64,000 bases of DNA, from the NCBI RefSeq assembly GCF_018138085.1, contig NZ_CP073105.1, positions 930,001 to 994,000 on the forward strand. Direction: 5' to 3'. Shown in pieces: positions 62,681 through 63,130 of the stretch (position 1 is its first letter; each line of letters starts with the position of its first letter). Under the pieces are notes generated by a model. It was not told the DNA's origin. It saw only the letters and a list, made by a program, of their open reading frames with translations, and made no database searches. Both the position numbers and the translations under genes were made by a program. The DNA is from Stutzerimonas stutzeri (GTDB lineage: Bacteria > Pseudomonadota > Gammaproteobacteria > Pseudomonadales > Pseudomonadaceae).

Positions 62681-62684
62681 ATAC

Positions 62685-63116
62685 CGCTGGAGGCTGAAAG
62701 CTTGAGGCTGAACGAATGGATTTCGAACGCCTGGATGTATGGAAACTGTCGGCGCGGCTTTCGGTTGATATATACCGGGAGCTGGCTAGTTGCCGGGATT
62801 TCGGATTCAAAGACCAGATCACGCGGTCAGGCCTGTCGGTTCCGAGCAATATTGCCGAGGGCATGACTCGGGATGGTGACAAGGAAAAACGCTATTTTCT
62901 GAGCATGGCGAAGGGTTCCTGCTCGGAGTTGCGCACTCAAATATATATAGGGGTTGAGGTGGGATTTATTTCCACTGAATGCGGGAACGACTGGATAAGA
63001 CGCAGCAAGCGAATTGCGGCGATGCTCTCCGGCCTGCTGAAGCTCCTCCAAAAGCAATAACCCAGGCCGGGACTGGAGGCTTTTTCGTCAAGCCTTCCAG
63101 CCTCAAGCCTCCAGCG
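62685..63116. repeat. Imperfect inverted repeats framing the insert between cysD and cysN
   Basis: The left arm has CGCTGGAGGCT (62685-62695), a 6-base GAAAGC insertion, then TTGAGGCT (to 62709). The right arm, 63099-63116, reads CGCTGGAGGCTTGAGGCT when reversed. The arms can pair as an 18-bp stem that would loop out the whole inserted gene. A second local hairpin (CTGGAGGCT at 63073 with AGCCTTCCAG at 63091) stands inside the right arm. Confidence 0.75.
62716..63060 (+). CDS. Four-helix-bundle protein (S23/IVP family) inserted in the cysDN operon
   Basis: A 114-residue protein of the four-helix-bundle family first seen as the intervening-sequence protein in 23S rRNA genes. It shows FERLDVWKLSARLSVDIYR, the signature QITRSGLSVPSNIAEG and a C-terminal helix with RSKRIAAMLSGLLKLL. 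The gene lies between cysD and cysN, has weak ribosome-binding context and contains an unusually AT-rich patch (AAATATATATAG at 62939). Relatives include the diversity-generating-retroelement protein Avd, but no reverse transcriptase is here. The function is unknown; nucleic-acid binding is inferred from the family. Confidence 0.88.
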   Translation: MDFERLDVWKLSARLSVDIYRELASCRDFGFKDQITRSGLSVPSNIAEGMTRDGDKEKRYFLSMAKGSCSELRTQIYIGVEVGFISTECGNDWIRRSKRIAAMLSGLLKLLQKQ

Positions 63117-63130
63117 ATAGAGAAGAAAGC

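Follow-up and report, generated by a model that had tools for sequence, protein, structure and literature searches.

An S23 gene framed by heptamer arrays between cysD and cysN

The window analyzed here is a stretch of 64,000 nucleotides from Stutzerimonas stutzeri (contig NZ_CP073105.1, positions 930,001 to 994,000 of the forward strand). Close to its end, a gene of the S23 family lies between cysD and cysN, framed by two tandem arrays of a degenerate 7-nt repeat. An earlier note on this DNA had placed the end of cysD at 62680, the start of cysN at 63131, and an S23/IVP open reading frame (ORF) in the 450-nt gap between them, and all of this was confirmed. Below, G numbers denote genomes (G000 is that of the window) and L numbers denote S23 loci or array stretches. 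The locus consists of the following features:

61763..62680, + strand: cysD, sulfate adenylyltransferase small subunit, the upstream host gene (TIGR02039, 520.7 bits)
62686..62712, + strand: 5' heptamer array GCTGGAG GCTGAAA GCTTGAG GCTGAA (from the sequence; array caller score 7)
62716..63060, + strand: S23 / 23S_rRNA_IVP ORF of 114 aa, four-helix-bundle family (PF05635, NF008912, TIGR02436)
63073..63082, + strand: extra sense-strand heptamer-like stretch CTGGAGGCTT (inverted-pair search; predicted local hairpin)
63088..63116, - strand: 3' heptamer array, reverse complement of the 5' heptamer (CGCTGGAG GCTTGAG GCTGGAA GGCTTGA; array caller score 9)
63131..64000, + strand: cysN, the downstream host gene, continuing beyond the window end (TIGR02034, 481 bits)

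The S23 ORF scored 103.6 bits against PF05635 (cut-off 33.8), 98.5 bits against TIGR02436 (cut-off 24), and 165.3 bits against NF008912, which places it in the S23 family by both curated cut-offs, and its PF05635 match is the only one in its genome. The closest solved structure is 2gsc (E 5.2e-15). The element lies in the sense of the operon, just past a stop codon: the 5' array begins 5 nt behind that of cysD, and its GAGG may double as the ribosome-binding site of the S23 gene.

The inverted repeats that the earlier note had seen around the gene are real (18-nt arms at 62693-62710 and 63098-63115, 89% complementary), but their nature differs from what was described, as each arm is a tandem array of degenerate heptamers. 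What had been taken for a near-exact inverse is a pair of reverse-complementary arrays that differ by one unit. The CTGGAGGCTT stretch is predicted to be able to form a local hairpin with part of the 3' array. The element thus has 7-nt arrays on both sides that are mutually reverse-complementary, although both are short, and the 5' array (score 7) falls just below the cut-off of 8 used for counting, which the 3' array (score 9) passes. At this locus alone the match between the arms is modest (z 3.3 against dinucleotide shuffles), and 19 of 90 other loci have a 3' arm that fits the window 5' arm better; the weight is therefore carried by the family-wide evidence below.

As the element sits between cysD and cysN and not in a 23S rRNA gene, it is not an rRNA intervening sequence (IVS). 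An Rfam family was rejected as its identity, since a search of 61600-64000 gave no match at E up to 1. A patch of foreign DNA around the junction was likewise rejected: the identity of cysD and cysN between G000 and 12 genomes of the genus showed no sharp block. In the same comparison the first 100 nt of cysN were 80-92% identical, which in most of the genomes made this the least, or nearly the least, similar part of cysN.

Matched heptamer arms across the S23 family

Four sources supplied the S23 loci: a sequence search (80 retained out of 273), the genus (12 places), plasmids (10 out of 19 records), and a class-wide sample in which 57 of 274 genomes had an S23 match and 50 of 68 places were fetched, most of the remainder being weaker. 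L012 was dropped for want of a match to the window protein and L154 as the twin of L153, and the validation set is without L187 (interrupted frame) and L193 (a copy of L163). L005 and L016 are one locus, as are L006 and L013, and each was counted twice in the surveys of 91 and 100 loci. Arrays were counted at a score of at least 8.

Flanks of 160 nt at 91 loci showed identities of 0.360, 0.341, and 0.334 at lags of 7, 14, and 21 nt, compared with 0.254, 0.253, and 0.294 in control stretches. An array was present on the 5' side of 92 and on the 3' side of 90 of 100 loci, and in 13 of 191 control stretches. The 49 loci fetched after the hypothesis had been formed carried one in 43 (5') and 36 (3') cases. 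In a non-redundant set of 56 loci (protein identity below 65%), 7 was the best period among 4 to 13 in 97 of 112 flanks, against 14 of 110 controls.

The two arms of a locus are also matched to each other. Of 39 non-redundant loci with arrays on both sides, 31 had arms that agreed at 6-7 of 7 positions, whereas only 3 did so when the arms were read in direct orientation, and arms from different loci reached this agreement in 2.4% of comparisons. The mean match was 5.85 of 7 within loci and 3.54 between them, and none of 5000 permutations was as high. Since the arms of one locus match and those of different loci do not, the letters of the heptamer are free between loci and tied within a locus. 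Accordingly, the shared flank words that the earlier note had proposed, GGAGGCTTGAGGCT, were present in close relatives only; what the family has in common instead is the 7-nt period together with the match between the two arms. Tandem 7-mer units whose letters are specific to the locus speak against an ordinary inverted repeat or terminator, an explanation that was rejected on this ground.

A universal AG within the heptamer was considered and rejected. It was present in 84 of 92 5' arrays and 81 of 90 3' arrays of the first 100 loci, but in only 29 of 43 and 21 of 36 in the validation loci, and AG was thus retained as a preference only. Among non-redundant 5' arrays, the consensus heptamer contained it in 37 of 50, compared with 66 of 191 control stretches.

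One genome, G139, holds four S23 places (L162, L189, L190, L191). The heptamers of L162, L190, and L191 differ from one another and L189 lacks a score-8 array, so that the letters seem to be a property of the element rather than of the genome. In the 3' flank of L207, a run of N inside the heptamer array region was left as it is.

The S23 protein

The S23 protein is under strong purifying selection, with a dN/dS of 0.03-0.07 in 15 of 21 pairs among seven relatives, many of them at dS above 1; the other 6 pairs were left out because dS was saturated. Conservation was counted on 53 of the 56 non-redundant proteins, three being dropped for unfit length or stops. The S23 protein of Xanthomonas is reported to form a pentameric ring (PMC4990558). 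PF05635 has also been reported to resemble Avd, the accessory protein of the reverse transcriptase of diversity-generating retroelements (DGRs), with 4DWL alongside 2GSC (PMC10053308). A profile of 27 S23 proteins found 2gsc and 2rld among solved structures and no Avd entry at E up to 1; its other matches, to designed proteins and ATP synthase f, were weak. A phage origin of S23 was rejected, as no relative was found at E 1e-5 in 50,697 phage records.

S23 loci at operon junctions, empty and filled

The earlier note's suggestion that such elements enter operons fits the sites found. Sixty-two of the 91 loci gathered by sequence or from the genus lie behind cysD and before cysN in sense, a share that is biased because these loci were chosen for their resemblance to the window protein or belong to its genus. 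At L053 and L085, about 1.8 kb separates S23 from cysN. Among 87 loci beyond this list, simple ORF calls put the upstream ORF in the same direction as S23 in 65 and in the opposite one in 11, and left it unclear in 11; L180 and L195, which are among them, likewise have cysD upstream.

Other sites are varied. In annotated plasmid records, S23 is found in type I-D CRISPR operons, flanked by cas6 and cas4, and in one case between an iron-sulfur assembly accessory gene and sufB. The cyanobacterial plasmid loci L150 and L156 have S23 with heptamer arrays between cas6 and cas4; the 3' array of L156 is long and in direct orientation. At seven class-wide loci (L176, L179, L182, L183, L184, L188, and L192), a tRNA-Gln (CTG) gene follows directly downstream on the same strand in every case, and directly upstream is what we take, by its motif, to be the end of an S9-like ribosomal protein. 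This junction would then be a second hot spot of S23, beside cysD-cysN. Judging by their end residues, further neighbors are presumably aceF-lpd, metF, rplY, ftsZ, hsdS, and gmd.

The cysD-cysN gap was compared in 55 genomes of the genus. It measured 11-13 nt and was empty in 41 (3 of these by eye), 433-491 nt with S23 in 11, and 99 nt with other spacers in 2. In G052 (L142) a gap of 194 nt lacked an intact S23 but kept a 3' arm that hardly differs from that of the window, marking it as a decayed copy of the window's element. The clean empty sites that a mobile element should leave in relatives are thus found within the genus, and the 11 filled junctions belong to exactly those 11 of 56 genus genomes with a PF05635 match over the cut-off. 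S23 proteins at the filled junctions share 49-92% identity with the window protein and their heptamers differ, which suggests that the junction has been occupied or replaced repeatedly. No near-identical copies at unrelated sites stood out in the set of loci, although no systematic search for them was made.

Three further sites deserve a description. L068 (Pseudomonas mandelii) has an S23 ORF without clear heptamer arms, inside an apparent partial direct duplication of the cysD end and cysN start that is either a recombination product or an assembly fault. In Calothrix brevissima NIES-22, two plasmids (L153, L154) share an integrase-S23 block and its heptamer arms. One assembly of an uncultured Halomonas contains two cysD-S23-cysN loci (L024, L027), and in L027 the S23 frame is interrupted.

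Heptamer arrays elsewhere in S23 genomes

Arrays linked to the presence of S23 also occur throughout genomes, a feature beyond the account of the earlier note. A pattern derived from the arms had 165 matches in G000, where S23 is single-copy, and 2 when reversed. The arrays of the window match it as well: the 5' array with one mismatch (G000:C1:992692-992709) and the 3' array on the minus strand (G000:C1:993099-993116). Across 56 genus genomes, a related pattern gave a median of 239 matches in genomes with S23 (72-628, n=11) and 17 in those without (7-164, n=45; Mann-Whitney p 3e-7); the pattern stems from S23 arms, and its matches overlap along an array and so are not counts of arrays. Independent contrasts on a cysD tree of 55 genomes gave r 0.84.

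To remove the bias of the pattern, heptamer arrays of any letters were counted in long stretches. The three genomes with S23 held 25 arrays in 1.12 Mb (G011, 12 in 380 kb; G009, 7 in 340 kb; G000, 6 in 400 kb) and the two without held none in 0.80 Mb (G025, 395 kb; G023, 400 kb). G000, G025, and G023 were sampled at even steps, while G011 and G009 came from one long contig each, on which matches had been seen beforehand, so that their density may be flattered. Periods other than 7 gave 0-4 arrays in each sample. The cysD tree places G025 as sister to G009 (support 1.00) and G023 beside G039 (support 0.13).

The type of array also tends to follow the element. In 8 of 10 S23 genomes of the genus, the commonest of three exact array types was that of the genome's own arms; G001, with a fourth type, stands outside this count, and the third pattern is less strict than the other two. 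Outside the genus, G210 had 357 matches of its own arm heptamer (0-2 in 21 other genomes) and G301 had 88 at about 20 places (none in 20 others). For G092 the pattern was non-discriminating, with 4 matches and 48 in the control column.

Most of these arrays start at gene ends. Among 48 arrays from stretches of G000 and G210 picked for pattern matches, 29 start between -15 and +30 nt from the stop codon of a same-strand ORF (simple ORF calls; L231, with equal G and C, was left out), compared with 3 in the corresponding antisense arrangement, and in many cases the array runs over the stop codon. The 5' arms of cysD-cysN elements behave similarly, with a median start 14 nt past the cysD stop (59 loci). 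Inverted array pairs were recognized by eye in L219, L227, L230, L231, and L232, among 20 stretches of G000.

Likeness to 23S rRNA intervening sequences

The earlier note had likened the element to protein-coding intervening sequences of 23S rRNA, and this likeness held. The sole rRNA copy examined, L158 on an Azospirillum lipoferum plasmid record, is situated within a 23S rRNA gene (Rfam LSU match 783-3981) and is flanked on each side by a heptamer arm. In Coxiella, a GACAGAT heptamer is reported before the S23p ORF, in three or two copies depending on the strain plus a degenerate one, and RNase III is reported to cleave within the stem of the IVS (PMC4990558). With the arms of L158 and the Coxiella heptamers taken together, the window element is built like an rRNA IVS although it lies outside rRNA.

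The ends of the window element are complementary and predicted to be capable of forming a stem: in the RNA fold predicted for 62672-63140, the outer portions of the two arms are base-paired (z -3.04 relative to 100 shuffles). Across the family, the predicted arm duplex had a median energy of -64.0 kcal/mol for own arms (n=56) and -44.5 kcal/mol for swapped ones (n=672). Like the IVSs of Coxiella, Leptospira, and others, the element thus has an S23-family ORF in transcript sense between complementary arms, with heptameric repeats upstream of the ORF as in Coxiella and on both sides as in Azospirillum. Unlike them, it sits at a junction in an mRNA operon, its genome carries S23-free arrays at many other places, and cleavage by RNase III is putative. 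Its S23 is also strongly conserved, whereas the Coxiella ORF is described as undergoing reductive evolution (PMC4990558).

A proposed protein-linked repeat element and its alternatives

The association of S23 with heptamer arrays is a result of the comparisons above, and from it we infer a mechanism. We think it fairly probable that the element is of the IVS type but resides outside rRNA, in an mRNA operon, and that its protein, working in trans, either acts on heptamer repeats or spreads them. The window element would be promoterless and transcribed with its operon; in the transcript, the arms would pair into a stem open to cutting by RNase III, as in rRNA IVSs. The S23 ring may recognize nucleic acid made of heptamer repeats, either RNA or DNA, and together with host enzymes it could cause repeats to be copied, extended, or kept at the 3' ends of genes. 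S23 elements would then be the protein-coding members and bare arrays the dependent members of one family. A broader version, for which we hold a more tentative expectation, has S23 proteins as the agents by which a general system writes and spreads 7-nt repeats in trans behind stop codons, with bare and inverted arrays as its offspring and 23S rRNA IVSs as the special case in rRNA.

A number of results weigh against the main reading or complicate it. Association is not causation, and direct movement was not seen; at the genus junctions (55 genomes) no target-site duplication or exact ends were visible, and the difference between filled and empty junctions goes beyond an insertion. We know of no catalytic motif in S23. 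The independent contrasts rest on a tree of cysD, the neighbor gene of the element. The arms themselves are not always well behaved: 8 of the 39 loci match poorly as inverted repeats, L062 and L174 fitting the direct orientation better and L031, L057, L163, L179, L194, and L195 matching poorly, while the 3' arrays of L054, L058, L059, and L156 are direct by eye, the array orientation of L164 is reversed, and L181, L184, L189, and L208 have no score-8 array on either side. In a first arm test, which included close relatives, a locus's own 3' arm was the top match in only 17 of 91 loci, with a median of 3 others better.

Array load is uneven too. G039 and G047 are richer in another array type than in that of their own arms. 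Several genomes without S23 (G041, 164 matches; G022, 140; G024, 134; G045, 105) exceed the S23 genome G046 (72), which under a trans-acting role would require recent loss of S23. In G316, 12 of 13 matches of its heptamer surround its S23 (G301 has 5, G191 1, and 19 others none), and in G131 all 37 fall within 7.5-10.7 kb of its S23 contig. With S23 present and arrays almost solely at its locus, spread is not automatic: it is found in several S23 genomes and is not universal.

The main rival, which we regard as unlikely, reverses the causation: arrays arise in some other way, and S23 settles in genomes that are already array-rich, or passes between them by homologous recombination. That S23 genomes hold arrays mostly of matching type would follow equally from homology-driven capture, and the shared cysD-cysN site of all 11 genus carriers is what allelic exchange predicts. 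However, arms also exist in G316 and G131, genomes nearly free of other arrays of that heptamer, two relatives without S23 have no any-letter arrays in about 0.4 Mb each, and G052, with its decayed element, has only 9 pattern matches.

In another explanation, to which we assign a similarly low probability, S23p is an RNA-binding regulator, for which TRAP and CsrA are models, the arrays are its binding sites in the 3' regions of mRNAs, and mobility is only ordinary horizontal transfer. Arrays that begin at sense stop codons (29 of 48) would be transcribed, and the purifying selection on S23, the frequent AG in 5' consensus heptamers (37 of 50), and the pentameric ring reported for the Xanthomonas protein (PMC4990558) would all suit such a protein. 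The letters of the heptamer and the array load shift between relatives, however, which is fast for a regulon, and inverted arms around the S23 gene itself suggest an element.

It is improbable that the element is a plain rRNA-type IVS that moved into an operon, with arms for RNase III excision only and genome-wide heptamers as unrelated slippage. The same arm design in 23S rRNA (L158), the cleavage of the Coxiella stem by RNase III (PMC4990558), and the predicted stem of the window element agree with it, but it leaves the S23-linked arrays across genomes unexplained. Finally, an ordinary small gene of the cys operon with a terminator- or attenuator-like repeat, which the 62 of 91 sense positions between cysD and cysN would suit, is already disfavored and highly improbable given patchy presence, empty junctions, locus-specific matched arms, and many other sites (the 23S rRNA gene, CRISPR and suf operons, and the S9-tRNA-Gln junction).

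Relation to other repeats and systems

If S23 does act in trans, a general S23 system could also account for other heptameric repeats of bacteria that lack an explanation, such as STRR of cyanobacteria, TAACTGA, and similar repeats. REPIN-RAYT offers a precedent in which a protein-coding gene is tied to numerous non-coding repeats of its own genome that are short and partly palindromic. As there, a single gene is linked here to many non-coding genomic repeats; in contrast, S23 is a four-helix bundle and not a relative of transposases, and the repeat is a 7-nt tandem array. Avd of DGRs shares the fold family of S23 by report (PMC10053308), yet the profile of 27 S23 proteins does not find it at E up to 1.

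The orphan heptamers GGGAATC (Xanthomonas), GGGGA(C/T)T (Nostoc), and TAACTGA (Beggiatoaceae, cyanobacteria, and Bacteroidetes) are, as described, likewise dispersed 7-nt arrays that are mostly intergenic. GGGAATC repeats are reported close behind the upstream ORF (28 nt on average), with 70-75 cases of inverted pairs (PMC4692102), and differ in that AG is absent from either strand. TAACTGA repeats of one genome are reported mostly just before start codons, unlike the arrays described here (PMC4679880). The main texts of these two papers do not contain the terms "S23" or "four helix". In searches of the open literature, the one paper found to mention heptamers beside S23p was PMC4990558, and subscription papers may contain earlier reports.

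IVS-encoded S23 proteins have been said to have an unknown role (PMC4990558), and bacterial genomes to contain an unexplained excess of heptameric repeats (PMC4692102). The present data join these two questions: the gene family has a defined arm structure, and the load of repeats across the genome tracks the gene. Both become directly testable. They suggest that S23 and its heptamer arrays are a little-known kind of selfish or regulatory element. If S23 drives the growth of repeats, tandem repeats at the ends of genes would have a protein-linked source distinct from both transposases and simple slippage.

Elsewhere in the window, a weak 7-nt periodic stretch at 41252-41281 (score 13) is the sole one with a score of at least 12.
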